A DNA stretch of 64,000 nucleotides, taken from the NCBI GenBank assembly GCA_017543285.1, contig JAFYGK010000027.1, positions 1 to 64,000 on the forward strand, in the 5' to 3' direction. Source of the stretch: Clostridia bacterium. Lineage in GTDB: Bacteria; Bacillota; Clostridia; Oscillospirales; Acutalibacteraceae. The stretch's first letter is position 1. Every line of letters begins with the position of its first letter. The notes under the pieces were generated by a model that did not search any database, was not told the DNA's origin, and saw nothing but the letters and a program-made list of their open reading frames with translations. Below are positions 2,029-26,535 of this stretch, in pieces. A program made the position numbers and the translations under genes.

Positions 2029-2061
2029 TATATTGATTATATGTTTACATTGGAGGTAGGC

Positions 2062-2427
2062 ATGAAATATCGGTTTTCAAAAGAGATTTATCAAAAAGAA
2101 GCTTTAATTAAAGCAGCATACAGATATACCGATAAAGCATATATACATCTTGACGCTGATGAAAACAACTTTTATGTCGATATTGAGGCCAAAAGCCAAG
2201 AAAACCATATAACCGAAAAGGAGTTTAAAAATGCGATTCTTGCCGAAATGGTTCGATTATATATATCCGACCGAACAAAAAATGTCAGAGAGTTGATTTT
2301 GGCGCGTGCTTTTTCATCAACAATCATTGAAAAAGACGACCTTGAACCTCCTCCCGAAAACGACTATAATATCGCAAACATATTGACAGATTGGTTTGAT
2401 GAATATGATGACACTGAAGCTATGTAA
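2062..2427 (+). CDS. hxsD: His-Xaa-Ser system protein HxsD
   Basis: The protein has 121 residues from the ATG at 2062. That start is chosen because GGAGG (2052-2056) sits five bases before it, whereas an upstream in-frame ATG at 2041 has no ribosome site. The family hallmark is the C-terminal block VRELILARAFS preceded by an EF-type helix (EKEFKNAILAEMVRLYISD). HxsD is a small protein of unknown biochemical role that always accompanies the HxsB/HxsC radical SAM pair. A role in presenting the target peptide to the enzymes is an inference only. It is the first gene of a tight operon, and a second shorter HxsD-like gene overlaps its end. Confidence 0.8.
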   Translation: MKYRFSKEIYQKEALIKAAYRYTDKAYIHLDADENNFYVDIEAKSQENHITEKEFKNAILAEMVRLYISDRTKNVRELILARAFSSTIIEKDDLEPPPENDYNIANILTDWFDEYDDTEAM

Positions 2428-2623
2428 AGAATTGTACTCAAGAGAAGATATCGAAAAAAGCATTCATGATTTCTCGAGCCTCGCAATATTTGATATCCTT
2501 GATAAAGCAGATTCGTATTATATTAAAATGTCTGAACCTAAATTTGATGAGAAGCAAACTGCAGGCGAATTTGAGAATTATTTGATTGATTTGACCTTTA
2601 GGAGCATGAAGTCATGCTTGTAG
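2405..2623 (+). CDS. Second, short HxsD-like protein
   Basis: The protein has about 72 residues. ATG codons occur at 2399, 2405 and 2408 with no clear ribosome site; all lie inside the end of hxsD, so translation is probably coupled. The layout repeats that of HxsD: an aromatic/Lys-Glu start (ELYSREDIEKSIHDF), an alternating beta segment (DSYYIKMSEP) and an EF-type helix (GEFENYLIDLTFRSM). The C-terminal LILARAFS block of HxsD is missing. I read it as a diverged, truncated duplicate of HxsD, or a partner subunit. The similarity was judged by eye and needs a profile comparison. Confidence 0.6.
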   Translation: MMTLKLCKELYSREDIEKSIHDFSSLAIFDILDKADSYYIKMSEPKFDEKQTAGEFENYLIDLTFRSMKSCL

Positions 2624-3573
2624 TGGATTTAGCCTTATCGGTTATCACCTTATCGGTCTGTTTTTATGCTATGATATCCGATATAAAAACCGGAAAAGTA
2701 GCGAATAAAGCGCTTACATTTTCCGGGGTATTTTCATTGTTTATTTTGCTAATAAAGATACTGATCTTTAATCATGATGACTTATTTTTGTATCTTGAGA
2801 CCGCAGGTATTATGTTGCTGTTTAGTGTAGCGGGGTATCTTGTCAAATTTTGGGCAGGCGGAGATTGCAAATTGATTGCTTTAATAGCAATTACCTATCC
2901 AACGCTATTCTATGTTAATTACAATCAAAATAGGGTGACTCTTTGGTCCATTCTAATAATAGCTTTTATAATCGGATTTATTTATTTAATAATAGACTCT
3001 GTCATTGAAACAATAAGCAAAAAGAGCCTCTTTGATAAAAAGCAGATATTTCAGCATTTTAAAAGATCTTTGATTATGTATCTGAGATCGCTTGTTTATT
3101 TAGTTGCGCTAAATCAGATATACACGTATTTTATAAGTCCGTATTTCCGGCTTAATAACATAGCATATTTTTTCGTGAGTTTCATTCTGGTTTATGGGGT
3201 AAACAGAATAAAAATCCTCGGGAATATATGGGTTATTATCGCATGCGTCGCCTTTGATTTAGTAATGATAATATTCACCCGTAATCTTACCATGTTCAAT
3301 TATTGGGGCGTCTATATATTGATTCTATTTTTAATGTTATTAAGAGCTTTCATGCATTTGCACAACTATAAAGCAATTAATACATCCGATGTTTCAGAAG
3401 GTATGGTGTTGTCAAAAATCGATACGATTATAATGAATAATTCTCGGATTCATGGTTTGCCGAATATTTCCGATGAAACATTAAGCTCACGACTCACTGC
3501 TGAAGAAGCTAAGAATGTAAAAAAATGGGGAAACTCAAAATATGGCAAAACACAGGTTTTAATCGTAAGATAA
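2614..3573 (+). CDS. A24 prepilin-peptidase-like membrane protease (C-terminus cut by in-frame TAA)
   Basis: The protein has 319 residues; ATG 2614 is preceded by AGGAG at 2600-2604. It is polytopic, with about seven predicted hydrophobic helices. The two catalytic aspartates of A24 aspartyl peptidases are visible: D23 in SDIKTGKVANKAL after helix 1, and D84 in WAGGDCKLIAL, a GxGD-type motif with Ala at its first position. These enzymes cut prepilins after a conserved Gly. A TAA at 3571-3573 ends the gene. The same frame then continues for 26 codons (IPFAAFISAG and a hydrophobic stretch) to a TAA at 3652-3654, which looks like the usual last helix. The gene is therefore a truncated or recently damaged member, unless readthrough occurs. 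It overlaps the preceding gene by 10 bp. Confidence 0.75.
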   Translation: MLVVDLALSVITLSVCFYAMISDIKTGKVANKALTFSGVFSLFILLIKILIFNHDDLFLYLETAGIMLLFSVAGYLVKFWAGGDCKLIALIAITYPTLFYVNYNQNRVTLWSILIIAFIIGFIYLIIDSVIETISKKSLFDKKQIFQHFKRSLIMYLRSLVYLVALNQIYTYFISPYFRLNNIAYFFVSFILVYGVNRIKILGNIWVIIACVAFDLVMIIFTRNLTMFNYWGVYILILFLMLLRAFMHLHNYKAINTSDVSEGMVLSKIDTIIMNNSRIHGLPNISDETLSSRLTAEEAKNVKKWGNSKYGKTQVLIVR

Positions 3574-3638
3574 ATACCATTTGCCGCTTTTATTTCAGCT
3601 GGCACGATTATGTACTATTTTATAGGGGTGTTACAGTT

Positions 3639-4745
3639 TTGCAATTTAATATAAAGAATTATAGCCTTGGAAGCAAATTATTTTCCATAGCACATAATCA
3701 AGATGCACTCGAAAAGCTGAGAGGCAAAGGATTGAATACGGCACATCTTTTTGGTCCTTCATTAATGTTTTACCCTGAAAAAGAGTCCTTTCCTCTTACA
3801 TGCAAAAACTTAGAAAAACTTTCTATCTGTGAAAACTATGATGTTTTATATGTTAATGAGCAAGGAGACGGTTGGGTACAGTTCGCAAACGAAAAAGATG
3901 ATAACCCATTAATTCTAACTCAGCGATGCAATTCAAATTGTTTAATGTGCCCTACTTCTGTATCGGTGCGTAAAAAAGAGAACGCTCTCTGTATTGATTA
4001 TAATATTGAACTTATTAAATATATTCCTAGTGATGCAAAACATCTGACAATTACCGGAGGAGAGCCGTTTCTTGTCGGAGATAGAATATTTGATTTGTTT
4101 AATGAAATCAAAAATCGGTTGCCAGACACAGACTGTCTTTTACTTACCAACGGACGAGCCTTAGGATATATTCCTTATGCCGACCGACTTTTACTCTGCG
4201 CACCCAAAAGATTAATAGTTGGCGTTCCGCTTCATGGCTACAATAGTGATACTCATAACAGAATTACGCAGACCGCAGGGAGCTTTGATCAAACCGTTTC
4301 AGGCATTAAAAATTTATTATTCAGAGGTTTTAATGTTGAAATCCGTATTGTCGTCAGCAAGCTCAACTGCCAGTTTATCAGCAGAATTGCCGATTTAATC
4401 ATCAATGAATTCCCTCATGTGGGCAGTGTGAAGATTATGGGGTTGGAAATGCTTGGGAGTGCTGCAAAATATGCAGAGGACATATGGATCCCTTATGATG
4501 TTGCATTTGAATACTCAAAAATAGGAATCATAAATCTAATCAATCGAGGCATTGATGTTGGCTTGTATAATTTTCCGTTGTGCGCGGTTGATAATAATTT
4601 CCATCTTCTCTGCCAAAAGAGTATCACTGACTATAAAATCAGATTTACTGAAAAATGCGATGACTGTAAGAAAAAACAAAATTGCGGAGGCATTTTTGCA
4701 GGAACCATTAGATTTGCAAAAAACAATGTGATGCCTTGGAGATAG
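3639..4745 (+). CDS. hxsC: His-Xaa-Ser system radical SAM maturase HxsC
   Basis: The protein has 368 residues from TTG 3639, chosen because AGGGG (3624-3628) lies ten bases upstream and homology-like sequence begins there. The frame is open upstream to an ATG at 3525 inside the protease gene, which would give 406 residues. The radical SAM cluster is CNSNCLMC (C97, C101, C104), the CX3CX2C motif in the HxsC-typical context, followed by the GGEP motif (LTITGGEPFL). A C-terminal Cys group (CDDCKKKQNC) suggests an auxiliary iron-sulfur site. HxsC always pairs with HxsB, and both are thought to modify a His-Xaa-Ser repeat protein. The chemistry is not known to me. Confidence 0.9.
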   Translation: MQFNIKNYSLGSKLFSIAHNQDALEKLRGKGLNTAHLFGPSLMFYPEKESFPLTCKNLEKLSICENYDVLYVNEQGDGWVQFANEKDDNPLILTQRCNSNCLMCPTSVSVRKKENALCIDYNIELIKYIPSDAKHLTITGGEPFLVGDRIFDLFNEIKNRLPDTDCLLLTNGRALGYIPYADRLLLCAPKRLIVGVPLHGYNSDTHNRITQTAGSFDQTVSGIKNLLFRGFNVEIRIVVSKLNCQFISRIADLIINEFPHVGSVKIMGLEMLGSAAKYAEDIWIPYDVAFEYSKIGIINLINRGIDVGLYNFPLCAVDNNFHLLCQKSITDYKIRFTEKCDDCKKKQNCGGIFAGTIRFAKNNVMPWR

Positions 4746-4746
4746 T

Positions 4747-6135
4747 ATGTTTAACTATTTTAATTTTAAGAAGTATAGAGATAAATACTTGATAACCAAT
4801 GATTTTGGTAGATATAGTTTTTTAACTCCTTTTCAGCTTAAAGATTTATTGTTGAATAATAAGAGGCTTGACGACAAAACAGACAAATACTTATGTGAGA
4901 GGTACTTTACATACAGCGGCGATATTGTGGATTTTTCGAGCGGCAGCTCCTTTGAAATGCTCAGTATTAAGAGCTACCTTTATAAAAGCACCAGTCTTCA
5001 TATTTTTGTGCTAACATCTGCCTGCAATCAAAAATGCGTATACTGTCAAGCGCACAGTGACACTAATCGTCCCAAAGGGTTTATGAGCAAAGAAACCGCA
5101 AAAAAGGCAGTTGACATCGCAATACAATCACCCACGGAATATCTTGATTTTGAATTCCAAGGCGGGGAACCGTTATTGAATTTTGAAGTATTAAAGTATA
5201 TCGTTGATTACGCAACATCAGTTTGCAATAAACATATAAATTTTTCACTCGTAACAAACCTAACTCTTTTAACTGATGAAATTATCAATTTTATCGTTTC
5301 ACATAATATTAGCGTATCAACGTCGCTTGATGGCAATCCTTCTGTGCACAATACCAATAGACCTTATCAGGACGGCGGAGATACATATTCCTGTGTCGCA
5401 GAATCTATAAAGAGATTAAGAGAAAACAATATTTATGTCAGCGCAATTCAAACCACTACAAGAGCTTCGTTGCCATACTACAAAGAGGTAGTCGACGCTT
5501 ATATTGATCTAGGATTTCATTCTATTTTCATAAGACCGTTGACTCCATTGGGCTGCGCCAAAGAGCATTGGAAAGATATTGGATACTCCGCCTTGGAGTT
5601 TACAGCCTTTTATAGAAATATTCTTTCTTATATTGTTTCAAAAAACTGCGATGGTTATTATCTCGATGAAGGCCATGCAAAAATCTTCCTTACCAAGCTG
5701 CTTTCTGGTTCATCACCCAACTATATGGAATTGCGATCGCCCTGTGGAGCAGCACTCGGTCAACTTGCCTATTACTATGATGGCAATGTTTTCACTTGTG
5801 ATGAAGCACGGATGCTTTTTGAGATGGGTGATGGTTCTTTTTGCGTGGGAAATGTAAATTGTTCGGATTATAATTCTATTATTGATTCAAAAATCAGCGC
5901 ACTCGTTTCAAAATCAAGTGTATTAGAATCCCTGCCATCATGCAGCGACTGCGTATATCAGCCATACTGTGGTGTATGTCCTGTGATTAATTATGCAGTA
6001 AATAACAGCGTTTACGAAAACGCTCCGCATGAGTATAGATGCAGAATTTACAGCGGCATGCTTGATAGCATTTTTGACTATTTTTATTATAATGATAAAG
6101 CGATCACAGATGTATTCTGGAGTTGGATAGAATGA
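4747..6135 (+). CDS. hxsB: His-Xaa-Ser system radical SAM maturase HxsB
   Basis: The protein has 462 residues. GGAG lies five bases before ATG 4747, one base after the hxsC stop. An N-terminal region of about 85 residues is followed by CNQKCVYC (C93, C97, C100), the 4Fe-4S/SAM motif, and FEFQGGEPLLNF as the GGEP motif. A SPASM-type C-terminus with many cysteines (FTCDEARML, CSDCVYQPYC, GVCP, YRC) should hold auxiliary clusters, as in peptide-modifying radical SAM enzymes. The context GFMSKETAKKA after the Cys motif is characteristic of HxsB. The stop overlaps the next start (ATGA), so the operon is tightly coupled. Confidence 0.92.
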   Translation: MFNYFNFKKYRDKYLITNDFGRYSFLTPFQLKDLLLNNKRLDDKTDKYLCERYFTYSGDIVDFSSGSSFEMLSIKSYLYKSTSLHIFVLTSACNQKCVYCQAHSDTNRPKGFMSKETAKKAVDIAIQSPTEYLDFEFQGGEPLLNFEVLKYIVDYATSVCNKHINFSLVTNLTLLTDEIINFIVSHNISVSTSLDGNPSVHNTNRPYQDGGDTYSCVAESIKRLRENNIYVSAIQTTTRASLPYYKEVVDAYIDLGFHSIFIRPLTPLGCAKEHWKDIGYSALEFTAFYRNILSYIVSKNCDGYYLDEGHAKIFLTKLLSGSSPNYMELRSPCGAALGQLAYYYDGNVFTCDEARMLFEMGDGSFCVGNVNCSDYNSIIDSKISALVSKSSVLESLPSCSDCVYQPYCGVCPVINYAVNNSVYENAPHEYRCRIYSGMLDSIFDYFYYNDKAITDVFWSWIE

Positions 6136-7424
6136 AAGTAAAAAATAATAAAAATATAGCGAAATCTAAACGGTTAAAGAATAAAAAACCCAAAGAGACG
6201 GTGGATTTAGTTTTTGATATGCCGTTGGATAGTAGCGAGAAAGCTTTGAGCACAAAAAGCAATAAATGGAAAAAAGCGTTAGGCATATTATTGTTTATTG
6301 CAGGTCTTAGCGGTATTTTATATTTTTCTGATATTGGAGAAAGGTCAATAAAAGAACTTGAACATCAATTCTCAGGGCGAATCAGCACTACCGACGGTTA
6401 CTATGTGGGAGATACTGATTTTGGCGTATTTAGCGGTCGGGGTGTGTTGGAACTTGATTCTGGAAAATCGCTTTCGGGAATATGGAATAATGGAGTATTG
6501 TCAGGAAAAGTAATATTGGAATTTGAGGGACTCGGAAAATACGAAGGCGATTGCATAGATTCTGTACGCTCAGGCAGAGGAACCTTTGTCTGGGAAAACG
6601 GTGATTTTTATGAAGGCGAATGGTCTCGAGATAAGATCAATGGCACTGGAGTTATGACTTGGGCTGACGGCTCGGTTTATACCGGTGAATTTAAAAATAA
6701 CAAGCTGTCCGGCGAAGGTATACTAACCTTTAACGACAAACATAAGTATTCAGGTTCGTTTGTTGACGGAAAATTTGAAGGCATTGGCTTATTGGAATTT
6801 GCAAATGGGGATAAATACGAAGGAGAATGGTCATCGAATCAGTTTTCAGGAGACGGCGTCTTCAAATGGAATAATGGAGGCTCTTATACCGGCAGCTTTT
6901 CCAATAACCATTTCTATGGTGAAGGAGATCTGCAGATTCCAAACGGAGCTTATCTTAAAGGAACTTTTAACAATAATGTCCTAATTGAAGGTATCGGCTT
7001 TATTAAAAACGAAAACGCCTCCTATACTTTTACATATAAAGAAGGCGACGTTGTTAACGCAGAAATTGAGTTTGCAGACAAATCAAAGTATGACGGCTCA
7101 TATTCAGATAATACATTCAACGGAAATGGCGTTTTTACTTATAAAAACGGAGATTCATATACAGGCAATTTTAAAAACGGGTTGCGCAATGGAGAAGGAA
7201 TATATACCTGGAAAGAATCAGGGGCTAAATATGAGGGAAACTGGTTGAATGATAATATGAATGGTCACGGAGTATATTATTATACGCTGATACCCGGCGC
7301 ATATAAACTTGACGGGAATTTTAAGGATAATAAGCCCGAAGGGAAATGCACTTTTTACCAAACGAAAACAAAATCTTATATCACGTATTGGACGGACGGC
7401 AAGTGTACTAAGCTGGAGGAGTAG
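6132..7424 (+). CDS. Membrane-anchored MORN-repeat protein
   Basis: The protein has 430 residues from ATG 6132, which overlaps the hxsB stop as ATGA. The N-terminal about 50 residues are Lys-rich and probably cytoplasmic. One hydrophobic helix (GILLFIAGLSGILYF, about 54-69) is followed by more than a dozen MORN units of about 23 residues (for example YEGEWSRDKINGTGVMTW, then YTGEFKNNKLSGEG). MORN repeats form extended beta hairpins and in bacteria are found in surface or scaffold proteins. By topology the repeats face outwards. Its place between the radical SAM pair and the His-x-Ser protein suggests it is a partner or scaffold of the modified product. That is inference. Confidence 0.85.
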   Translation: MKVKNNKNIAKSKRLKNKKPKETVDLVFDMPLDSSEKALSTKSNKWKKALGILLFIAGLSGILYFSDIGERSIKELEHQFSGRISTTDGYYVGDTDFGVFSGRGVLELDSGKSLSGIWNNGVLSGKVILEFEGLGKYEGDCIDSVRSGRGTFVWENGDFYEGEWSRDKINGTGVMTWADGSVYTGEFKNNKLSGEGILTFNDKHKYSGSFVDGKFEGIGLLEFANGDKYEGEWSSNQFSGDGVFKWNNGGSYTGSFSNNHFYGEGDLQIPNGAYLKGTFNNNVLIEGIGFIKNENASYTFTYKEGDVVNAEIEFADKSKYDGSYSDNTFNGNGVFTYKNGDSYTGNFKNGLRNGEGIYTWKESGAKYEGNWLNDNMNGHGVYYYTLIPGAYKLDGNFKDNKPEGKCTFYQTKTKSYITYWTDGKCTKLEE

Positions 7425-7427
7425 TCT

Positions 7428-7976
7428 ATGATTAGCAAAGAGAATCAATTCCCAAAGATCAAAAAGGCGATAGATGATTTCATTAATGATGAGGACGGCA
7501 GCATTTTGCGAAGTAGATTAATCAGTATTGGTTCGATGGTTTTGCTAATGACTATTTTTGCCGGCATTGAAGCCTATGCTGCCCATAGCTCGCATAAAAG
7601 CCATTCTTCGCATTCGTCAACTTCTTATTATCGAGGGCATGTTAGCCATACTTCGCACTCCAGCCATGTATCTGGTTCAAATTCCAGACATGGTTCACAC
7701 TCAAATCATAGCGACCATGCCAGCCATGCCAGCCATACATCCCATGCAAATACATCTGCCCACTCAAATTCGATATATTCCAGAGAAGGAGATGTGACCT
7801 ATGGTCCTGATGTTTCAGATATTCCTGGAATCGAAACCCCGCAGAGCACTGTTGATTATGCAAACATTACTATGAGTGACAAGGTTTCTATTGTTGCTCC
7901 GATTCTATCAGATTCTATTGATTCTGTATATCCGAATGATATACAGGAGGTGGACATTCCGGATTCAGTAGAATGA
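7428..7976 (+). CDS. His-x-Ser repeat protein, predicted radical SAM substrate (HxsA-like)
   Basis: The protein has 182 residues with GGAGGA upstream of ATG 7428. The N-terminus is short and charged (residues 1-24), then comes one hydrophobic helix (about 31-48). The helix ends in AYA-AHS, a possible signal peptidase I site at 51/52. Residues 53-115 are a low-complexity tract with about twelve H-x-S triplets (HSS, HKS, HVS, HTS, HAS) plus HSN, HSD and HAN variants. The acidic C-terminal about 65 residues are non-repetitive. This is the composition that defines the target of the HxsB/HxsC pair, so it is the expected modified product. FINDEDG before the helix resembles a prepilin leader, of interest because an A24 peptidase is encoded in the same operon. 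Arginines at 28 and 30 speak against a normal pilin. Confidence 0.85.
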   Translation: MISKENQFPKIKKAIDDFINDEDGSILRSRLISIGSMVLLMTIFAGIEAYAAHSSHKSHSSHSSTSYYRGHVSHTSHSSHVSGSNSRHGSHSNHSDHASHASHTSHANTSAHSNSIYSREGDVTYGPDVSDIPGIETPQSTVDYANITMSDKVSIVAPILSDSIDSVYPNDIQEVDIPDSVE

Positions 7977-8077
7977 TTGTTTATATCACCCCAAGAACAA
8001 CATCTGTACGAGATGACAATCTTAATGAGAACTACTTAATCGTTTCGTTGCAGCAACTATTGAATGTCGCGCACTAA
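7973..8077 (+). CDS. Short ORF coupled to the Hxs operon (uncertain)
   Basis: This is a 34-codon frame whose ATG overlaps the stop of the His-x-Ser gene as ATGA. The product (MIVYITPRTTSVRDDN...) has no recognisable domain. The tight overlap argues for translation. It could be the start of a further operon gene whose rest has decayed, since the DNA after the stop looks degenerate. Confidence 0.3.
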   Translation: MIVYITPRTTSVRDDNLNENYLIVSLQQLLNVAH

Positions 8078-8213
8078 ACCGAACACCTGAGCCTGCGGAC
8101 GGAAGAAAGGCATAAGATTGCGTTGGAGAATATGGTATTGGAGATGTAAGAGCTGGTTAAAAATAAAAAGCGGCGTATGCAATAAACAGGACAGATAATA
8201 GAATTAATTATTA
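8078..8213 (+). other. Degenerate sequence between the Hxs operon and IS256
   Basis: No intact gene is present. One frame at 8081-8149 reads EHLSLRTEERHKIALENM..., with the look of an old protein-coding remnant, but I cannot assign it. The stretch ends in AT-rich DNA at the target duplication of the IS256-family element. Confidence 0.35.
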
Positions 8214-8221
8214 CAATAACT

Positions 8222-9744
8222 GGCTCTATCCCGTATTCTGTGTAAACTCCAAATCATGGCGTAAAACAGAGCGATAATAATATGCAAGGGAGGGCGGCCT
8301 GTCCGGCCTCCCTTGTTTACAGTATAAGCGGAAAACGGAATGCATGTCAAGGGCGGCGGCTTTTGCCGCCGTTCATCGGAGCAGCGCGTAAGCGGTGCGC
8401 AGACCCTTGACCTGCAGGCCGGTTTCTGCTACTCAGTGATTCTGTCTCCGAAGAAGATAGACAGCTGAGCATAGATGATACTCCAGTCCTGCCTTCTGCC
8501 AGTCCACTTCTTTGTAATATCCATCATGGCCAGATAAAGCATCTTGAAAAGGCTGTCGTCGGTGGGAAAGACAGATTTGGATCTGGTTACCTTCCTGAGC
8601 TGACGGTTGAAGCCCTCGATGGTGTTGGTGGTATAGATCAGCCTGCGTACCTCCTGCGGATACTTGAAATAGGTACTCAGATTCGGCCAGTTATCCCTCC
8701 ATGACTGCGAGATCTTGGGATATTTCTTATCCCAGCGCTCCGAGAAGGATTCCAGAGCGTCCAATGCTGCAGCTTCATCCACAGCAGCGTATACTGCCTT
8801 TAAATCCGCCATAAGTGCCTTTATGTCCTTGTAGGATACATATTTACCGGAATTACGAAGCTGGTGTATGATGCAGTTCTGAATCTCTGTTTTGGGAAAT
8901 ACCGCTTCGATTGCGGAAGACAATCCGGTCAGATTGTCCGTACAGACAATCAAAATATCCTCTGCTCCACAGTTTTTCAAGCCATTGAGAACCGTTGCCC
9001 AGAACTTGGCGCTTTCATTTTCTCCGACCCACATTCCGAGAACATCCTTCCTGCCGTCTAAATCAATGCCTATGGCGATATATACCGCCTTCTTAACGAT
9101 CTGTCCCTCGCTGCGCACATGATAGTGGATGGCGTCAAGAAATACAACGGCATATACGGACTCAAGCGGCCGCTGCTGCCATTCCTTTGCAATAGGAAGT
9201 ATCTTATCTCTGACACGGCTTACTGTCGTGTCAGAGACCTCTATACCGTAGATATCCCTGATATGTGTTTCGATATCACCGGTAGTCATGCCCTTGGCAT
9301 ACATGGACAGTATCTTCTCCTCGATATCCTGACTGATGCTGGTCTGGTTCTTCTTCAGAAGCTGAGGCTCAAATTCGCCCTTTCTGTCCCTGGGAACGGA
9401 AACCTCCACATCGCCGAAGCTGGTGCGCAACGTTTTGCTGCTGTGACCGTTTCTGCTGTTGTCCGTGTCTTTGTTCTTGTAGTCATACCTGCTGTAACCC
9501 AGTTCGTCATCCAGCTCGGCATCCAGACCGTTCTCCATGAATTCCGCGATGGTATCCTTGAAGAGATTCTGAATGTCCTCCATGCTGCTGACTCCGCTGT
9601 CCTGCAATAGTTCCCGAATCTTTTCCCGACGGGCCTGTTCTTCGGGACTGCGCTTTCTTCTGCTGCTGCTCATAATAAAACCTCCAATATGATGCTTCTA
9701 TTCTACACCATATCAGAGGTTTACACAAATTATGGGATGGACTC
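8222..9744 (-). mobile_element. Complete IS256-family insertion sequence with 8-bp target duplication
   Basis: Imperfect 26-bp terminal inverted repeats lie at 8222-8247 and 9719-9744, sharing an ATCCC block and the inner GTGTAAAC. They are flanked by the identical octamer CAATAACT at 8214-8221 and 9745-9752. IS256-family elements are known to make 8-9 bp duplications. The element is 1523 bp and holds one full transposase, so it may still be active and its insertion is probably recent. Confidence 0.9.
8429..9673 (-). CDS. IS256-family transposase
   Basis: The protein has 414 residues, full length for the family. The Mutator-type DDE core is intact: D180 (VVFLDAIHYHV), D246 (LIVCTDNLTGL) and E353 (TTNTIEGFNRQLR). 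The N-terminal region carries the usual Lys/Arg-rich start and a GNG-like segment (RNGHSSKTLRTSFG) before the core. It lies inside clear terminal repeats with a target duplication, and no frameshift is seen. Confidence 0.96.
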   Translation of the reverse strand: MSSSRRKRSPEEQARREKIRELLQDSGVSSMEDIQNLFKDTIAEFMENGLDAELDDELGYSRYDYKNKDTDNSRNGHSSKTLRTSFGDVEVSVPRDRKGEFEPQLLKKNQTSISQDIEEKILSMYAKGMTTGDIETHIRDIYGIEVSDTTVSRVRDKILPIAKEWQQRPLESVYAVVFLDAIHYHVRSEGQIVKKAVYIAIGIDLDGRKDVLGMWVGENESAKFWATVLNGLKNCGAEDILIVCTDNLTGLSSAIEAVFPKTEIQNCIIHQLRNSGKYVSYKDIKALMADLKAVYAAVDEAAALDALESFSERWDKKYPKISQSWRDNWPNLSTYFKYPQEVRRLIYTTNTIEGFNRQLRKVTRSKSVFPTDDSLFKMLYLAMMDITKKWTGRRQDWSIIYAQLSIFFGDRITE

Positions 9745-9822: not shown

Positions 9823-11625
9823 TTATAACAATACGTCTCCAAATGCGGCCACTACATCTTCACTATCCCTGCCAGCAATTGTTCTGCCAGTCGCAATCTG
9901 GATTGCATCAAGGAGCTTCTTGGCCCTGTCAATGATGAACTTGTCAAAGTCATCTGTTCTTGCAAGCGCAGGATCAATCCAGTGGGTTTCGAGGTAACCA
10001 TCAAGTGTAGACGGGAAAACCTGTCCTTTTTCCTCTATCTTCTTCAAATACCTGCTCGGAGCCACACCGCCTATTTCTCTGTTTGAACTGTAGGAAATCG
10101 GCGTCTTGTTTACAACGCTGTTCCACTTTGCTCTTGGCAGATTATTAGTTTCACAATAAGCTCTCGGGAAAATATGATGAATATCAATATTCTCTGATTT
10201 ATAGACTGTGAAATCCATATCTCTGCCGCTTATAAAGTCCTGACTATGATTTTTTAAGATAAGTGCTATAATGCCTTTGTACGCTGCAGATTGTCTGGTC
10301 TGAAGGCCAAGCAGACGTGTAGGATTGAAGTAAGAATCCTGAGCTGTTTTCGGAACATAAGTATCATCTCTAAGCCAATCAATGACCTGCACGATATCAT
10401 TTGCATAGCGAGTTTCGTTTGCAGAGCCATACAGTTCGCCGAAAACACCGCTCCAGTACCATTGCTTGATTTTATTCCTATTATTCGTAACCTTAATCTG
10501 GTTTCCCTCCGACAGTACTGTGCAGATTGCTGCAAGCGGGATAATCTGTGTAGTGTACGGAAGGTCTCTGCTCGTAAAAATGCGCTCTTCTTGAAGAATC
10601 TTTTCGGCTTCAACAAATCCCTTTGTTAAGTCATCTGCATATTTTTTATATTCTGAGAGCGGGAGATTAAGAACATCTTTTTTCTTGCAGGACACGGCAA
10701 CTTTATCATCAGCCAGCTTCCGCTTGTAGGTTGAAAGCAAAGTAATTGCTGTTAAGAAATCAGTAGCCGTTACAACATCGAGGACATCACCATCAAAATA
10801 CTTCTCCTTACGTATATCCCAGTCCTTACGCAGCTCAAAATCATCAGCGCTGTAAGAAGCAACGACAAGCTCAAATACTGTCAGCGGCACACCGCCAGTA
10901 TTAACATTTTCAAAGACGCGGCACACTGCCTCTTTGGGAGTTTCTTTATCAAGAGAGATAACAGGAATTTGATAGCCAATCAACTTTGTCACGATTTCTT
11001 GAACAAATTTGTTGAACAGCATAGAGGCGGAAGCATCAAAGTTATAATATGCCTGATAACCATTCTGCCAGCTCATGACTTTACTCAAATCAAAGATGCT
11101 ATTTAACGGAAATACCTTGTTCTCAAATTCTTTTTCTCGTGTGCTTAAGTCAAGGTCGATGCTTCTACCAAAATCATTGGTTTTTTGTTTTGTTTCAGGA
11201 ATGGAGATTATTATGTCTTCGTCATCGGCATCAGGGTCAAGAGACTTTTCGATATCAATATAGTAGTACCTGTATATTGTCTTATTACGGTCAGTCCTTG
11301 TACAAGTCTTCACTGGATTCTGTGAATATAAAGCAGAATACAAAGAAGTAAGTCTCTGCTGTCCATCAAGAATCAGATCCGTTGGCACAATGCCTTTTCC
11401 TTCTGATGCAGAGCCTTCAATTGTCCTGTATTTGAATCGGATGTTCTCATTTCCATAGGTCAGGAACATAGCAGCACCAACAGGATAATTATGTACCACG
11501 GAGGCAATCAGAGCCTTAATCCTATCATCATCCCACACCCAGCTTCTTTGGAAATCAGGAAGCTGGGCTTTTCCTTCGTCAACCGCTTTTAGCAAATCTG
11601 TTATTGCCCTATCATTTGTTTTCAT
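9823..11625 (-). CDS. DUF262/DUF1524 protein, GmrSD-like, fourth gene of the hsd operon
   Basis: The protein has 600 residues. The N-terminal DUF262 domain shows the ParB-like nucleotidase motifs QLPDFQRSWVW (21-31) and LILDGQQRLTSL (84-95). The C-terminal DUF1524/HNH region contains IDIHHIFPRAYC and an NKTPIS...NREIGG segment. This single-chain layout matches GmrSD-type modification-dependent nucleases. The gene lies 26 bp after hsdR on the same strand, so it is probably transcribed with the type I system. Co-location with restriction genes supports an antiphage role, perhaps against modified DNA. Its specificity cannot be read from sequence. Confidence 0.85.
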   Translation of the reverse strand: MKTNDRAITDLLKAVDEGKAQLPDFQRSWVWDDDRIKALIASVVHNYPVGAAMFLTYGNENIRFKYRTIEGSASEGKGIVPTDLILDGQQRLTSLYSALYSQNPVKTCTRTDRNKTIYRYYYIDIEKSLDPDADDEDIIISIPETKQKTNDFGRSIDLDLSTREKEFENKVFPLNSIFDLSKVMSWQNGYQAYYNFDASASMLFNKFVQEIVTKLIGYQIPVISLDKETPKEAVCRVFENVNTGGVPLTVFELVVASYSADDFELRKDWDIRKEKYFDGDVLDVVTATDFLTAITLLSTYKRKLADDKVAVSCKKKDVLNLPLSEYKKYADDLTKGFVEAEKILQEERIFTSRDLPYTTQIIPLAAICTVLSEGNQIKVTNNRNKIKQWYWSGVFGELYGSANETRYANDIVQVIDWLRDDTYVPKTAQDSYFNPTRLLGLQTRQSAAYKGIIALILKNHSQDFISGRDMDFTVYKSENIDIHHIFPRAYCETNNLPRAKWNSVVNKTPISYSSNREIGGVAPSRYLKKIEEKGQVFPSTLDGYLETHWIDPALARTDDFDKFIIDRAKKLLDAIQIATGRTIAGRDSEDVVAAFGDVLL

Positions 11626-11651
11626 AATTCTTGCTCCTTACCTTTTCAAAT

Positions 11652-14600
11652 TCAAGCATTCATCCGCATTTCACGATAAATGATGCTGCCAAGCGCGTGC
11701 ATGATGGCGTTGTATTTGGCCTGGTCTTCAAACAGCGTAGTATAGGTATCTTGCGATTCCATATAACTGTCCTGCGCTGCCGTTCCAAACGCTTTCGGGA
11801 AAATGCTCTCTGCGAAAATCTGTGGATCGCTGGTCTTTGCCATGGTCTGCAGCTTGGTGTCGCTCATGAGCTTTGCCCTCAGTGCCGTCAACAGTACTTT
11901 GTCGGCATCGGTAAACTGGCCTTTATACTGCTCGTTTATCTTCTCGATGATTTCATCCAGCGGCTGCTTCTCTTCGGGCTTCACCGCACCTTTGGCGCTG
12001 GCAGGCGTATAGACGCCAGTTTCTTCTTTCAGCGTGATTGCCCCTTCAAAGGTCTTTTGCAGCTTATAGTATTCAAGCTGGAGCTTTCCTTCAAGGTCAA
12101 TCATCTGTGTTGTTTCGGGCGGGATAAGTCCCAGCAGATAGCTTAGGAACACATATTCCTTGTGCAAGTCCGTATCGAACATACGCACCACCTGGGAGAT
12201 ATAGCCGTACCACTTAATCATATTGCGGCACAGGCGACGGAACTGGTAACGCTCGTCAGGGGTCAGCTTGTTATAACGGTCAGCAACAGGTTTCAAGATG
12301 CTGGTCATGCGTCCCATAGAACGTGAATCCTGCCTGCCGTAGCTGAAATACTCTCCAGCGAATGCTTCTATATCAGCATCGGAATAGATGGAGTAGCCCC
12401 GCAGCTCCTTCTGCACCTGATACAGCAGGTCGGTATTGACCTCGCGCTCCAGCATGGTTTCCTGATAGAACGGCTGGAATGCATCCTGAATATCCTCCTG
12501 CTTATTGATGAAGTCCAGAACAAAGGTGTCGGTCTTGCCTTGACAGGTACGGTTCAGGCGGGAAAGCGTCTGAACAGCCTTTACACCACGGAGCTTCTTA
12601 TCAACAATCATTGTGTGCAGCAGCGGTTCATCAAAGCCCGTCTGGTATTTCTCAGCCACGATAAGCACATTGAAATTCTCATGGAATTCTGCCTTGGTCT
12701 GGGATTCACCGATATGGCTGCCGTCTTTGCGGACGTTCAGCTTCGGTTCGGTGTATTCCTCGCCGCCGTCATTGACTGAGCCAGAGAACGCAACCAGAAC
12801 GCCGATATCGTTATAGCCCTTTTCTTCGATATACCGCTTGCACTCATGGTAATAGCGCACGGCTGCCAGGCGGGAAGAAGTAATGACCATCATCTTACCG
12901 CGCCCACCGATTTTGTGCCGTGTCGTTCCCAGATAAGTTTCCACGATAATCTGCGCTTTCTGGCTGATATTGTACGGGTGCAGCTCTTCAAACTTACGGA
13001 TTGTCTTGGCAGCACGAGAGCCAGGCACATCGGGATTGTCCTCAATGGTCTTGGCAATCTTGAAGCAGGTGTCGTAGGTCATGTAATTCTGGAGAACATC
13101 CAGAATAAATCCTTCTTCAATGGCCTGCCGCATGGAATAGATATGGAACGGATGGAAGCTGCCGTCCTCATACTCCGTGCCGAACATCTCCAGCGTTGTT
13201 CCCTTCGGGGTAGCGGTAAAGGCAAAGAAGGAAAGATTCTTGTGCCTGCCGTGGACAATCATTTCCTGAACGAGCTTATCAGTCGGGTCAATATCTTCCT
13301 CGGCCTTGCCCTCGATTTCTGCATACTCCCGCAGAGCATCTTCGGTATCGGCCAGAGCTGCTTTCAGCTTCAAAGCGGAAGCGCCAGTCTGGGAGGAATG
13401 CGCTTCATCCACGATGACGGCATAATTTCTGCCTTTTGCGCTGTCCACTTCCTGATAGATGACGGGGAACTTCTGCAATGTGGTCACGATGATACGAACA
13501 CCAGCGTTGATAGCATCCCGCAGGTCACGGCTGTTTTTATCTTCACCGATAGTCTCCACCGCGCCCAGCGTATGGTCAAAGCCAGAAATGGTTTCCTGCA
13601 GCTGTGCATCCAGTACCGTTCTGTCGGTCACGACAACGACACTGGAGAAGATTGCATTATTATCCTTGTCATGCAGAGAGGCCAGACGATAGGCCGTCCA
13701 TGCTATGGAATTCGATTTACCAGAGCCAGCGGAGTGCTGGATAAGGTAGTTATGGCCTGCGCCGTTCTCGGAAACGTGAGCAATCAGCTTCCGCACAACG
13801 TCAAGCTGGTGGTAGCGCGGGAATATCAGGCGTTTCTTCCTGATAACCTTTTCCGTGCCGTCAGGTTGCAGCTTCTTTTCCTCTGTAACTTGCAGATGGA
13901 TGAACTTCTGCAAAATATCCATCATGCTGTCCTTCTGGAATACCTCTTCCCAGAGATAGGCAGTAGGATAACCGTTCGGGTTCGGAGGATTGCCCTTGCC
14001 GCCGTCACGGCCTGCGCCGCTGCTGCCTTGGTTGAACGGCAGGAAGTAGGTATCTTTACCTGCAAGCTGCGTGGTCATCCAGACTTCCGTATGGTCAACG
14101 GCAAAGTAGCCCAGAATACGCTTATTGAACTGGAAGCAGACTTCGCGCGGGTCACGGTCATACATCCACTGTGTTTTGGCATTATCAACCGTCTGACCTG
14201 TGTACTGATTTTTCAGCTCAAAAGCAAAGACGGGGATGCCGTTCAGGACGAGCACCATATCCACGCTTTTATTGGTGTCGGCGCTGTAATACCACTGACG
14301 ATAACATGCGGTATGGTTTTGCGCGTACTGTTCCACCGCCGTCTGGTTCAGAGAGGATTCAGGCTTGAAGTAGCAGACACGGAAGGTGATGCCACGATGC
14401 TTGAAGCCATGCCGAAGCACAGAGACAAGGCCGCTCATGTCGCAGGCATTGTTGAACGCCACGCAGAACTTCCGCACGGTATCAATCTTGTTGGCATTCT
14501 CAAACCGTGCCCACTCCTTGGGCTGGGTTTTCTGAATGAAGGTAACCAGCGTATCTGCATACAATCCCAGATTCGGGTCATATGTATCTGTGCCCTTGAC

Positions 14601-14678
14601 GTAACCGCCGGCGGGAGACAGGAACGACGCTTCGATATCGGATTCAAAGCGTTTTTCGTTCGTTGTATCAATACTCAT
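11652..14678 (-). CDS. hsdR: Type I restriction endonuclease, motor/nuclease subunit HsdR
   Basis: The protein has 1008 residues. The N-terminal PD-(D/E)xK nuclease shows D140 and ELK at 154-156 (FAFELKNQ). The SF2 translocase follows, with Walker A HSAGSGKS (315-322), DEAH in [10 protein letters not shown], the TATPKG motif III and the QTGFDEP and LSRLNRT motifs. The C-terminal helical region contacts the methylase core. It cleaves unmethylated DNA after ATP-driven translocation. The start overlaps the hsdS stop by 4 bp (ATGA). No frameshift is seen and it should be functional. Confidence 0.96.
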
Positions 14679-16039
14679 GCTGGCACCTCCTTCTTTCCAG
14701 TGACATACTCAAAGATTAAAGCTCTTTTATATATGTCCATCTCGGAAATCAACTGCTCTTTTTTGGCAATCAAAGCATCGATTCCTGCACATTTTTCATC
14801 AAGAAATGCAACTATTTCTTGATGTTCTTCTTCGCTGGGAAGCAAAACTGTGGCATCGTTAAGTATTTTACGTGAAATGCTAAATAGTTTTACTCCCGAC
14901 ACCTTTGAACGGATTTGGCTTCTCCAAGCGTCAGTCTTGAATAAATAAGCAAGGTATTTCTTGTCGGCTCTATCTAACGACTGGAATATAATGGTATGAT
15001 ACCCTGCGAATAATTCCATATCGGAATCTACATATACACAGTTTCCGCATCCTTCTAAATCTTCGGATGTATCTGCAAAAATGAAATCGGATTGCTTTAC
15101 AAGTGATGACGGATTTGATATCAGATACTGTTCTGAAACAAATCTAAATAAATCTTCTTGAAGCTTTACCCCAGTGTTTGTTTTTGAATGGATTTGGCCA
15201 TAACTAATAACGGCAATCCCTTCCGCTAATAAATTGTCCTTCGTTATAGGCAATCCTTTACCAAAATTGAATAGTGCTTTTATCCGAGAAATATTCCAGT
15301 CTGCAGGTATATCCTCAACCCACAAAAGGCCACTGTCCTTTAGTGGACGGTTCTTTTTAATTCCCTTTGTGACTGCCTCTGTAATTACAGCCTGTTTCAA
15401 CTTCTTGTATTCTTCGATAGATGCTCGAGTTTCTTCGATAACAGCATCGATTTGGTCACACTCAGAATCAAGGAAATCAACTATCTTGTTTTGCTCTTCA
15501 GTAGACGGCACAGGAATACGTTCACACGCAAGCATAGAGGTTAAATCTAAATTCTGAATACCCGTTGTTTGTTTGATATAGTTTTTAGAGTATCCATTCT
15601 TGTAAAAAGTGACAAATACATATTGCATCCAATCACTCGTCACAAGGTCAGAGCATCTAATTCTGTCCATAAAATTTGCATAAAGAGCAGGATAATCTTT
15701 ATCAAATATGACAGTTCTTCCTACAGGTGTTTTTTCACCTCCGCCAGATTTTTCAATAAGAATATCTCCCTTTTTAAGTAAGAGTTTCCTTATAGTTTCA
15801 CCGTCATAATTTCTTATAGTAAGTTCATCGATAGGAGTATCCTTAAATCTAAATTTAGAATAATCAAAATCTGCAATTCTTAGACAGATTGTATCGCCAT
15901 CATCATCTGCTGCTTCATTTCCCCATGCTCCAGATGTTCGGTCTTCCACACAGCTTTTCATTCTATGAAGTTCCCATTTAGCAGGCATTATCCCAATCCA
16001 TGGAATACCTGAATCTTTCATCATACGTCCCATTGTCAT
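14675..16039 (-). CDS. hsdS: Type I restriction-modification specificity subunit HsdS
   Basis: The protein has 454 residues in the usual two-fold layout. TRD1 (about 1-170) is followed by a conserved helical repeat ([20 protein letters not shown], about 185-225). TRD2 (about 240-390) is followed by the second helical repeat ([20 protein letters not shown]). The two TRDs recognise the two halves of a bipartite DNA site, and the helices act as a spacer ruler. The gene overlaps both neighbours by 4 bp. The methylated sequence cannot be predicted by eye. Confidence 0.95.
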
Positions 16040-17796
16040 GCCTCCTTGTGGAATAGCGCCTGTAAGCTGGATGATATATCTGATTCTAAGCCAGTTATAC
16101 GCGCCATAATATCCTCAACTGGTTCAGGCATCTGGTACTCATAGAAATAGCGTGTCAGCGGAATTTCATACCCAACCTTGGTCTTCTTGGTATCAATCCA
16201 AGCGTCAGGAACATAAGGCAACACTTCCCGCTGGAAGTATTCTTCTATGTCTTGTGTCATCGGTACATTTTCTGTATCACGTAAACTGGAATCTGCTACG
16301 GGCTTGCCCTTTTTCAAAACAGGATTTCCCTGCTCATCCAGCGTCGGACGTTCGACCACGATTTTGTAATAGCCGAATTCCTCGGTGTCAAAAATCTTGC
16401 TCTGGCAGTATATGCCGCCTTTATCGCCATAAACAGCGTTTTGTTGGAATTCACCGTATGCTTTTACTATCAGATTGCGGCACAGATCGGTAATGTCGTT
16501 TCGCTTGGTGCCAATGCTCTTGCGACGCGGCTCATAGCAGTGGCTGGCATCAATGAGCTGCACTTTTCCAGCTCGGTGAGTTGGTTTGTCTTTAGAGCAT
16601 ATCCAAATATAAGTCGAAATGCCTGTGTTCATAAACTGGTCGGTGCTGAGCTGCACGATGGCATCCAGCCAGTCATTTTCGAGGATGTAGCGCCGAATCT
16701 CACTGGGTCCGCTTCCGGCGTCGCCGGAGAAAAGTGGCGAGCCGTTCTGTATGATAGCCATTCTCCCTCCGGAAGCCAGTTTAGATAAACCGTTCAGCAC
16801 AAAAAGCTGCTGTCCGTCAGATATTTTCGGCAGACCGGGTGCAAAGCGGCCCTGCTCACCTTTTTTGTTTTCTGCCTCAACCGCCTTTTGCTCCCGCTTC
16901 CAGTCAATGCCAAAGGGCGGATTGCTGATACAATACTGGAAGGTATATCCCTTGAACTGGTCGTCTGAAAGCGTATCACCGAACCGCATATTGTTCGGGT
17001 CGCCGCCGCGAATCATCATGTCAGCCTTGGCAATGGCGAATGTTGAGGGATTGAACTCCTGCCCGAAGCAGGTGACCTCGATATCGCTGTTCAGGTCGTG
17101 AATGCGCTCTTCCATGCAGGAAAGCATCTGGCTCGTTCCCATGGTCATGTCATAAACGGTGACATTTCCAGCATGGGTCAGGTCAGCGTCGGAAAGCAGC
17201 AGGTCGGTCATCAGATAGATAATGTCACGGCTGGTGAAATGCGCTCCTGCTTCCTCACCGAACGATTCTGAGAAACGGCGTACCAAGTCCTCAAAGATAT
17301 AGCCGCAGTCCACTGCGCTTATCTTGTCAGGACCGAGGTAGCCTTTCGGGCTGTTGAATTCCTTGACGGTCAGATACAGGGTGTTGCTCTCAACCATGCG
17401 CTTGATGACGTTATCGAAATCGAACTTGGAAAGAACGTCCTGCACATTGGGAGAGAAACCGGCCAGATAGTCACGGAAGTTGGGCTCTATGTTCTCAGGG
17501 TCGGCCAACAGCTTGTCAAAGGTGAATTTGCTGGTGTTGTAAAACTGATAGCCAGAGGCTTTCGTCAGGAAGCCTTCGATGACGGCAAGGTGCTTCACCT
17601 TGTCATAGGTATCTTGAACGGGCTGCCATGTGGGAAGCAGGCAATCGTGGAATCTCTTAACAACGGTCATCGGCAGGATGACAAGTCCGTACTCATGGGG
17701 CTTGAACGGGCCGCGCAGCATATCGGCCACGTTCCAGATCATGGTGGCCTTTTCTGCTATATTCGTTCCGACAGCATTGATTCTATCGTTCGGCAT
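16036..17796 (-). CDS. hsdM: Type I DNA adenine methyltransferase subunit HsdM
   Basis: The protein has 586 residues. An N-terminal helical domain is followed by the N6-adenine methyltransferase fold. The SAM-binding motif I is at 216-222 (DMTMGTS, a variant of the usual DPxxGTG/S) and the catalytic NPPF motif at 292-296 (NPPFG). AGGAG stands upstream of the ATG. It is the first gene of the hsdM-hsdS-hsdR-DUF262 operon and forms the M2S methylase with HsdS. Confidence 0.95.
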   Translation of the reverse strand: MPNDRINAVGTNIAEKATMIWNVADMLRGPFKPHEYGLVILPMTVVKRFHDCLLPTWQPVQDTYDKVKHLAVIEGFLTKASGYQFYNTSKFTFDKLLADPENIEPNFRDYLAGFSPNVQDVLSKFDFDNVIKRMVESNTLYLTVKEFNSPKGYLGPDKISAVDCGYIFEDLVRRFSESFGEEAGAHFTSRDIIYLMTDLLLSDADLTHAGNVTVYDMTMGTSQMLSCMEERIHDLNSDIEVTCFGQEFNPSTFAIAKADMMIRGGDPNNMRFGDTLSDDQFKGYTFQYCISNPPFGIDWKREQKAVEAENKKGEQGRFAPGLPKISDGQQLFVLNGLSKLASGGRMAIIQNGSPLFSGDAGSGPSEIRRYILENDWLDAIVQLSTDQFMNTGISTYIWICSKDKPTHRAGKVQLIDASHCYEPRRKSIGTKRNDITDLCRNLIVKAYGEFQQNAVYGDKGGIYCQSKIFDTEEFGYYKIVVERPTLDEQGNPVLKKGKPVADSSLRDTENVPMTQDIEEYFQREVLPYVPDAWIDTKKTKVGYEIPLTRYFYEYQMPEPVEDIMARITGLESDISSSLQALFHKEA

Positions 17797-21994: not shown

Positions 21995-22318
21995 ATGCGC
22001 AAGCGAACGGAAGAAATCAATGTAAGGGTCTTTAAGACCGAGAAGAACATCATAAGAAAGAAAGCAAGAAAATGCGGCATGAATATATCTGAGTATCTCC
22101 GCACTCTCGGAACAGGTCATACAGTCAAGGAAGCTCCGAAGAAGGAGCTTATGCTCGCCTATCAGAAGCTTATAAAGCTGCATGACAGCATCAGATATGA
22201 GGTTTCCATGTCAGAGCTCAGCAAAGCGCTGTCCGAAACAGAAGACCTTCTTCTGAAAGCATACCACGGAGAGGAGGATGATACAGATGGCGGTGACAAA
22301 GATATGGGCGATCCATGA
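21995..22318 (+). CDS. mobC: Mobilization accessory protein MobC
   Basis: The protein has 107 residues with AAGGAGG upstream. The N-terminal ribbon-helix-helix (VRVFKTEKNIIRKKARKCGM) and the ISEYLRTLG motif are typical for MobC. A helical middle is followed by an acidic tail. MobC binds oriT and helps the relaxase open the strands. The gene overlaps the relaxase start by about 30 bp, indicating coupling. Confidence 0.85.
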   Translation: MRKRTEEINVRVFKTEKNIIRKKARKCGMNISEYLRTLGTGHTVKEAPKKELMLAYQKLIKLHDSIRYEVSMSELSKALSETEDLLLKAYHGEEDDTDGGDKDMGDP

Positions 22319-23798
22319 CAGCATATCCCGCGTGGTGGAGTATTGCAGCAATCCCGATAAGACAAGACAGAAGGATTTGGAGCAGATCATCCTCTATGCT
22401 TCCGATAAGAAAAAGACAACACAGAAAGAAGAAGGAGAAGAAGGAGGAAAATCAGAAGAGTTCTGCGCAGTCACCGGAATAAACTGCAATGCGGATACAG
22501 CTGCAAGGGAAATGGAGAATGTACTCAGAAGATTCGGCAAGACAAGCGGCAATATTCTGTACCATGCCTACCAGAGCTTCAGGCCGGGAGAAGTATCCGC
22601 AGAGGAATGTCATCTCTTAGGAGTGGAAACGGCAAGAAGATTATGGGGAGAAAACCATCAGGTGCTTGTAGCTACCCACTTCAATACGGGAACATATCAT
22701 AATCATCTGGTACTATGTCCCGTAAACATGTGGAACGGCAAAAAGCTTGAAGCCAGATACAGCTTGTATTACAGTCTCAGATCCATGTCCGACCGTATAT
22801 GTAAAGAACACGGTCTTTCTGTGGTAAATAACCCACAAAGACACAAAACGGCGCGCTCTGTCTACTTTGCGGAAAAGAGAGGTGAGCCTACTCGGTTTAA
22901 TCTTATGAGAGAAGCATTGGATAAGGCGTTGTCTTTGTCCTCCTCATGGTATGAGATGACAATAGTGCTCAGAAAGCTGGGGTATATCTTCGATTGTGAC
23001 GTCTACAGGAAATATCCTACCATAAGACCGTTGCACTCTAAGAAATGTACCAGAACCTTCAGATTAGGTCCAAAGTATGATAAGGAGGCTATGACAGAAA
23101 GAATACTGGATAACCAGAGAGACTTCAGAGTTACGGAAAGCTACTTTGCTTTTCTGAGGCCGTATACGAGAGAATACGCAAGAAAGAATCCTCCTTCGCA
23201 GATGTATTACCGAAGGAGGGATTTTTACTTTAACGCTATTCATGTTACGGGATATCTCAGCCTCTTTCGATGTATCGCCATAATACTGGGCATAGCTCCC
23301 TTATACGAAAGACAGTATCAGAAGCCTCTTTCTCCCGAATGCCGCGAGGCTTGCAGGAGACTGGACAGGTATTCCGATGAAGTAGCCCTGGTATGCAGGG
23401 AAGGATTTGAAACGGTCGAGGATATTCAGGCTTTTATCGCAAGGATGAATACCGAGATAGATGAAGCAACAGCTGCCAGAAACAAGATACGAAACAAGCA
23501 GAGAAACTGTACTGACGCAGTAAAAAAGGAGGAGCTGAAAAAGCAGTGTTCTGCATGTACGACCGTACTGGCTGATTTGAGGAAAAGAAAGAAAACGGCC
23601 TGCAACATCATCGAAGACAGTCCGAGACTGAGAGAGCTTGCGGAGAGTGAGTTTGAAGCAAGGCTGGAGAATGACCCTTATTTGACCGAGAGGGAGAAAA
23701 GAGTAATAAGGCAGGAGGCCTTTGCAGAAAAAGAAAAACAGGACGCAGGGCAAAGGCATATCTTTGCCGAACGTAAAGAAACACAATATGAACGCTGA
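22287..23798 (+). CDS. Relaxase/mobilization nuclease (MobP-like)
   Basis: The protein has 503 residues from ATG 22287. GAGGAGG ends nine bases earlier; an ATG at 22278 abuts the ribosome site and is unlikely. The N-terminus MAVTKIWAIHDSISRVVEYC holds the usual start motif with the presumed nicking region. The metal-binding His triad is visible in ATHFNTGTYHNHLV. The C-terminal half is charged and coiled-coil rich. It nicks oriT and leads the strand to the recipient. The element has no mating-pair genes here, so it must use a helper conjugation system. Confidence 0.9.
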   Translation: MAVTKIWAIHDSISRVVEYCSNPDKTRQKDLEQIILYASDKKKTTQKEEGEEGGKSEEFCAVTGINCNADTAAREMENVLRRFGKTSGNILYHAYQSFRPGEVSAEECHLLGVETARRLWGENHQVLVATHFNTGTYHNHLVLCPVNMWNGKKLEARYSLYYSLRSMSDRICKEHGLSVVNNPQRHKTARSVYFAEKRGEPTRFNLMREALDKALSLSSSWYEMTIVLRKLGYIFDCDVYRKYPTIRPLHSKKCTRTFRLGPKYDKEAMTERILDNQRDFRVTESYFAFLRPYTREYARKNPPSQMYYRRRDFYFNAIHVTGYLSLFRCIAIILGIAPLYERQYQKPLSPECREACRRLDRYSDEVALVCREGFETVEDIQAFIARMNTEIDEATAARNKIRNKQRNCTDAVKKEELKKQCSACTTVLADLRKRKKTACNIIEDSPRLRELAESEFEARLENDPYLTEREKRVIRQEAFAEKEKQDAGQRHIFAERKETQYER

Positions 23799-26531: not shown

Positions 26532-26535
26532 GTGA

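Follow-up and report, generated by a model that had tools for sequence, protein, structure and literature searches.

A pilin-type A24 peptidase as candidate leader peptidase in a clostridial His-Xaa-Ser operon

A seven-gene operon of the His-Xaa-Ser (Hxs) type, with all genes on the plus strand, spans positions 2062-7976 of the window analysed here, a stretch of 64,000 nt from a Clostridia bacterium of the family Acutalibacteraceae (contig JAFYGK010000027.1). Its repeat protein, HxsA3, begins with a leader ending in (E/D)E(E/D)G, which comparison of sequences brings out as new, and the same operon encodes a membrane peptidase of the A24 family. We consider it probable that this peptidase is the dedicated, FlaK-like leader peptidase of HxsA3, with a predicted cut after the Gly of the motif once the radical S-adenosylmethionine (SAM) proteins HxsB and HxsC would have modified the precursor. 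A broader proposal stands about evenly between right and wrong in our judgement: that a pilin-type intramembrane aspartyl protease was recruited as leader peptidase of a radical-SAM-modified HxsA3 with a two-site precursor, giving a new maturation and export route that resembles those of ribosomally synthesized and post-translationally modified peptides (RiPPs) and is distinct both from pili and from the leader peptidases known for RiPPs.

The HxsA3 leader and the A24 peptidase

7428..7976, plus strand: hxsA3, His-Xaa-Ser repeat protein, 182 aa, 12 HxS (NF038309, 94.4 bits against a cut-off of 65)
7428..7499, plus strand: leader of HxsA3, residues 1-24, with NDEDG at its end; A24 is predicted to cut behind Gly24 (74-sequence profile)
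7500..7580, plus strand: hydrophobic stretch, residues 25-51, ending AYA, a signal-peptidase-I-like site (HxsA comparison)
7581..7770, plus strand: His-Xaa-Ser tract, approximate limits (HxS count; read from sequence)
2614..3573, plus strand: A24 (prepilin/preflagellin-type GxGD) membrane peptidase, 319 aa (PF01478)

The leader profile is a gap-free alignment, anchored on the Gly, of 74 sequences (73 HxsA3 from 72 loci and the window's own). HxsA3 N-termini share a conserved leader of ~21 residues ending in (E/D)E(E/D)G, followed by a hydrophobic stretch, an AxA-like site and the HxS tract; in the window, the corresponding segments are MISKENQFPKIKKAIDDFINDEDG, then SILRSRLISIGSMVLLMTIFAGIEAYA, then AH... 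The consensus reads M ... F-P(-15)-x-I-x-K/R-x-I(-9)-x-D-F(-6)-L/I-Y-E/D-E(-2)-E/D(-1)-G-N/S-I-S/P/T-R(+4)-x-K(+6)-hydrophobic-G(+11)-S/T-hydrophobic. The Gly is present in 73 of the 74 sequences, the exception (L085) having Ala, and ahead of it an acidic residue at -1 is found in all 74, Glu at -2 in 71, Phe at -6 in 58, Ile at -9 in 60 and Pro at -15 in 67. The prepilin-like arrangement, in which a short leader has Gly at -1 and a hydrophobic helix follows, thus recurs in 73/74. General consensus rules served to judge how far the N-terminus resembles class III (prepilin) signals and sites of signal peptidase I.

Positions +1 and +5, the AxA-like site and the spacing from Gly to HxS were scored in 72 of the 74 HxsA; in the other two, left unscored, an upstream HxS had been picked. 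The AxA-like site lies shortly before the first His, with Ala or Val at -3 (66/72) and Ala or Gly at -1 (70/72), and 29 residues separate the Gly from the first HxS in 61/72. A strict form of the leader motif gave 72 matches among 14,845 open reading frames (ORFs) of 87 loci, all of them labelled HxsA (78 ORFs are so labelled).

The peptidase scores 25.6 bits against PF01478 as a protein and 28.8 bits in a six-frame genome search, with a cut-off of 26.5. Its GxGD aspartates, Asp23 and Asp84, which we take to be the catalytic pair by analogy with FlaK, are conserved in 72/72 relatives covering both positions; this count leaves out L047, and the A24 frames of L017, L065 and L080, cut by contig ends, do not cover the Asp. 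The structure model of an intact relative is FlaK-like, and its match to FlaK extends to model residue 340, last helix included.

Peptidase and leader largely occur together. We scanned one genome per species with a 27-sequence HxsB alignment and scored the gene content of the best 80 of 473 loci, from named genomes, with local profiles; as these are the best matches to the window's HxsB, the counts hold for its neighbourhood and not for all Hxs systems. A24 is present in 76 of the 80 loci and HxsA3 in 72, and all 72 loci with HxsA3 have A24. Four loci with A24 have no hxsA nearby (L024, L029, L052, L086). A whole-genome search returned HxsA3 or HxsA4 elsewhere in three of these genomes and none for L029; all the proteins so found in the L024, L052 and L086 genomes carry the leader (DEEG, DEDG, SEEG). 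For three loci without A24 (L069, L072, L077), the genome search gave no HxsA3 match; L077 encodes a short HxS protein from which the leader is absent.

As controls served 12 Hxs loci (proteobacterial, cyanobacterial and bacteroidete plasmids). Neither the profile nor a GxGD motif screen detected A24 in them, no MORN gene was found, and the leader motif occurs in 0/11 of their HxS proteins (at least four repeats; 11 of the 12 loci), most of which begin with an ordinary signal peptide as judged by eye. The GxGDx(K/R) screen was added because the Hxs A24 profile misses general PilD proteins, giving no match on the PilD-like gene of L113. The screen recovers that gene; its only matches in L087, L114 and the 12 control loci are ORFs whose motif lacks hydrophobic surroundings. 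Distances of A24 and HxsB across 71 loci and the window correlate at r = 0.81, a value reached in 0/1000 permutations and expected of one inherited unit; for HxsB and HxsC, r = 0.83.

Several observations from these loci concern the same two partners. In the 0.8-Mb genome of L086, at L113 (609-4655, minus strand; partly also L110), two radical SAM genes follow an HxsA4 gene (78 bits, cut-off 55), and a PilD-like prepilin peptidase (PF06750, E 8.3e-27) stands before it, one gene apart; by its sequence, this arrangement is a second link between HxS proteins and pilin-type peptidases. L086 itself carries, beyond its C-D-D-B-A24 block and after two long ORFs, a classical type IV prepilin-like ORF (7943-8632, plus strand; QGFTMIELVVS). 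In the genome of L024, a separate stretch from that of the A24-C-B genes (L115, 2385-9045, plus strand) holds a lone hxsA3 ~1 kb after three ORFs, which are presumably serine-recombinase-like.

Operon content, recurrence and surroundings

2062..2427, plus strand: hxsD, 121 aa (TIGR03976, 72.5 bits against a cut-off of 50)
2405..2623, plus strand: second HxsD-like gene, 72 aa, starting at ATG 2405 or 2408 (NF038315 HxsD_rel, 55.8 bits against 41)
3639..4745, plus strand: hxsC, radical SAM, ORF open from 3525 (TIGR03977, 293.7 bits against 267.9)
4747..6135, plus strand: hxsB, radical SAM/SPASM (TIGR03978, 501.9 bits against 370)
6132..7424, plus strand: MORN-repeat protein, 430 aa (PF02493, nine stretches, E 5.7e-44)

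The genes follow one another tightly in the order hxsD, HxsD-like, A24, hxsC, hxsB, MORN, hxsA3, with a 10-bp overlap between HxsD-like and A24, an ATGA overlap between HxsB and MORN, and gaps of 1 and 3 bp. This is a real seven-gene operon, a clostridial HxsA3-type His-Xaa-Ser operon. The gene identities, the overlaps and gaps, and the two radical SAM enzymes given in a preliminary description of this DNA all hold (NCBIfam, PF01478, PF02493); NCBIfam yielded no match over cut-off for the A24 and MORN proteins. The operon was then thought to span 2041..8077. Its existence stands and its ends do not: HxsD most likely starts at ATG 2062, preceded by GGAGG, rather than at 2041, and the stretch up to 8077 takes in a 34-aa ORF (7973-8077) that we rejected as a member, its best match in the loci examined being an unconvincing E 0.77. 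For hxsC, TTG 3639 is the likely start, as nearly all of the 25 relatives listed have a candidate start near the A24 stop; judged against them, 3525 is a mere upstream extension of the ORF. A promoter-like site at 2001-2028 was also set aside: it is one of 23 such sites, against 25.3 in shuffled sequence, and so not significant alone.

The structure model of HxsD is beta-alpha-beta-beta-alpha (predicted local distance difference test score, 87). In an alignment of 27 HxsB, C93, C97 and C100 are among the invariant columns. The MORN protein has a single N-terminal membrane anchor, as read from its sequence.

The gene set had been called unusual, and in this it was misjudged: among the 80 HxsB loci, MORN genes are found in 60 and two HxsD genes in 58 (18 loci have one and 4 have none), next to the A24 counts given above, and NCBIfam already models the HxsD-like protein. 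The seven-gene set is a common clostridial form of the Hxs system. The extra genes thus recur beyond the window's genome, and both radical SAM proteins fall into the HxsB and HxsC families. The order D-D-A24-C-B-MORN-A, identical to that of the window, occurs in 33/80 loci and the block D-D-A24-C-B in 56/80, three loci ending at contig ends before A24. The MORN gene stands directly before hxsA in 60/60 MORN-bearing loci. This pair follows hxsB or precedes hxsD; L059 has two copies of it, L026 has it on the opposite strand and the genome of L052 on a different contig. Butyrivibrio, Blautia, Anaerostipes, Faecalibacterium, Clostridium and Mitsuokella are among the sources of the loci, as are two metagenome-assembled genomes named Eggerthellaceae. 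HxsB relatives are abundant, with 6649 of the 7997 candidate proteins scored matching the window's HxsB at E 1e-60.

Among these loci, an apparent 1282-aa HxsC in L047 proved to be a scaffold gap. At or just beyond the cluster end, 15/80 loci (e.g. L055, 7006-8184) have an unassigned membrane-like family on the plus strand; the offsets listed for 12 members reach up to 1.1 kb from the cluster end. In L069 and L072, HxsB genes occur with neither HxsC nor an HxS repeat protein, and each locus has nearby a secreted-looking ORF with four HxS triplets that presumably resembles TPM-domain proteins.

Horizontal gain, suggested in the preliminary description, gains support from base composition and from the rarity of HxsB: the operon has a GC content of 36.7%, against 49.6% for 10001-64000, and HxsB occurs in 2/198 genomes of relatives and 3/394 genomes of the order, the window's genome being counted in both. 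The right flank holds a Mutator-family transposase adjoining the operon, GmrSD, type I restriction genes, an AAA protein and, further right, a relaxase, ParB and an integrase beside tRNA-Leu. Within it, relaxase (PF03432), ParB, phage-type integrase and tRNA-Leu stand in a row at 22278-26620, which by its gene content looks like an integrative mobilizable element; the type I restriction and GmrSD genes lie beside it, at 9823-17796. On the other side, a MerR regulator with a TipAS antibiotic-recognition domain (1140-1868) directly precedes the operon, and tRNA-Ser (24-115) marks the left edge, next to an ORF (within 24-833) with a weak Pfam helix-turn-helix match, which we assume to be part of an IS21-type transposase.

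A proposed maturation route and its rivals

The earlier suggestion that modification is linked to processing is backed by the conserved HxsA3 leader and its co-occurrence with A24. In the route that we propose, the precursor would dock through its leader and have its HxS tract modified in the cytosol by HxsB and HxsC, partnered by the HxsD proteins. A24 would then remove the leader after the Gly at the inner face of the membrane, and signal peptidase I may later cut at AxA and free a His-rich extracellular protein, which the membrane-anchored MORN protein might hold, anchor or chaperone outside. As A24 lacks its last helix in the window's genome, the final stages of the route may be blocked or inefficient there.

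Several findings weigh against A24 as leader peptidase. Classical pilin rules place a hydrophobic residue at +1 and Glu at +5 of the cleavage site; none of the 72 scored HxsA has Glu at +5, and their residue at +1 is Asn, Ser, Thr, Gly, Glu, Arg or Asp. Arg at +4 (64/74) and Lys at +6 (67/74) lie directly behind the predicted cut site. Gly at +11 is about equally conserved (72/74), so that conservation alone cannot pick out a cut site. Foldseek on its own puts FlaK in 8th place, with E 5. The 12 controls come from distant phyla, so that their comparison is confounded by phylogeny. The deltaproteobacterial genome of L087 encodes a leader-bearing HxsA4, and no A24 lies near its Hxs genes or hxsA, the rest of the genome not having been searched.

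Finally, an in-frame stop codon (TAA, 3571-3573) truncates the A24 of the window. The preliminary description had named the family correctly and missed this stop. Beyond it, the frame runs for 26 more codons to TAA 3652-3654, matching the last helix of relatives. This C-terminal helix is kept in 75 of the 76 A24 frames of the loci (52 by motif, 23 by eye); in the remaining one, L047, the region is masked by a gap. One of 16 relatives in the protein alignment (P0018) has a different tail. Of three A24 matches in genomes of the order, the window copy alone has an internal stop, and a seeming internal stop in the genome of L061 (1/50), a TAG, is the gene's own terminal stop. The membrane core of the window copy is thus incomplete and, without its last helix, this copy may be inactive or weak; to go by the sequence, A24 may be impaired here. 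The truncation weakens the claim of activity in this genome and leaves untouched the family assignment, which rests on sequence. The TAA may be a real mutation or an assembly error, either being compatible with the present data.

The truncation also bears on another explanation, that the window copy is a decaying, now functionless passenger of a mobile island. The AT-rich operon, the few occurrences of HxsB in the order and the mobility genes to the right of the operon fit this account. Apart from A24, every frame of the operon is open, and five of these six pass curated cut-offs; the MORN repeats are clear and the Asp pair precedes the stop, and we regard such decay as quite improbable. A different possibility is that the leader is a docking element for HxsB, HxsC or HxsD only, that signal peptidase I cuts HxsA3 at AxA, and that A24 acts elsewhere, for instance in clearing the cut signal peptide. 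Conservation far upstream of the Gly (P-15, I-9, F-6) is what docking needs, the AxA-like site ahead of the HxS tract is a good one, and L087 has the leader with no A24 gene nearby. Against it stand the leaderless HxS proteins of the A24-less controls, the restriction of the A24 subfamily within the order to three Hxs genomes (the same 3/394 that HxsB matches), and a host without an N_methyl prepilin as alternative substrate; docking alone therefore appears unlikely to us.

That A24 is a general prepilin peptidase of a type IV pilus or Tad system, in the operon by chance or co-regulation, is hardly credible. Among 50 genomes of relatives, picked by eye from the 80, 38 have a T2SSE-type ATPase (E 1e-10) and 37 more than one A24 match, as a pilus peptidase would lead one to expect. 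Yet the Hxs A24 profile (55 rows) finds one match in each of the 50 and marks a separate subfamily, and in the 12 genomes without the ATPase, the Hxs A24 is the only A24 in seven, a second being present in five. The host genome (completeness 99.74%) has a single A24 match, the operon gene, no T2SSE ATPase (PF00437) over cut-off (two weaker matches, 22.2 and 18.8 bits) and no N_methyl prepilin in a PF07963 search; no other job for the host's A24 was found in its genome.

Significance and comparison with known systems

Should A24 prove to be the leader peptidase, the residue at which mature HxsA3 begins is predicted exactly, and the search for the product becomes a targeted mass-spectrometry experiment. 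It would also be a case in bacteria of a pilin-type protease working outside pili, flagella and secretion systems, and a new way of processing such products, which are predicted to be modified by radical SAM enzymes. The founding paper on Hxs systems is reportedly that of Haft and Basu from 2011. In the literature searched, from which subscription papers were mostly absent, none joins a prepilin peptidase with radical SAM and RiPP, none joins a class III signal peptide with radical SAM, none gives a prepilin-type protease the role of RiPP leader peptidase, and the matches listed for Hxs names include no study testing an Hxs product. One article describes HxS peptides as products that "putatively rely on" the two enzymes HxsB and HxsC (PMC9062424).

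Compared with the His-Xaa-Ser systems defined by TIGR03976-TIGR03979, NF038309 and NF038315, the window is a regular member, its HxsA3, HxsB, HxsC, HxsD and HxsD-like proteins all passing the curated cut-offs. It differs from the 12 Hxs loci of other phyla, in which B precedes C in 12/12, HxsD matches in 11/12 and A24 and MORN are lacking; in the window, as in 76/80 of its neighbours, A24 lies within the cluster. With radical SAM RiPP systems (SCIFF, ranthipeptides, nif11-like), the operon shares a SPASM radical SAM maturase and a small leader-bearing substrate; the leader peptidases of those systems are, to our knowledge, of other kinds than A24. Relative to FlaK, PibD and PilD (PF01478), A24 proteins of the window's type are longer, with ~345 aa where the FlaK chains have 186 and 225, and their subfamily is found with Hxs genes. 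HxsA3 is like type IV and Tad prepilins in its short cytosolic leader ending in Gly before a hydrophobic helix, and the acidic residues before that Gly recall Tad pilins; it differs from them in lacking Glu at +5 and a hydrophobic +1 among the 72 scored, and in having Arg at +4, Lys at +6, an AxA-like site and a His-Ser-rich tract.

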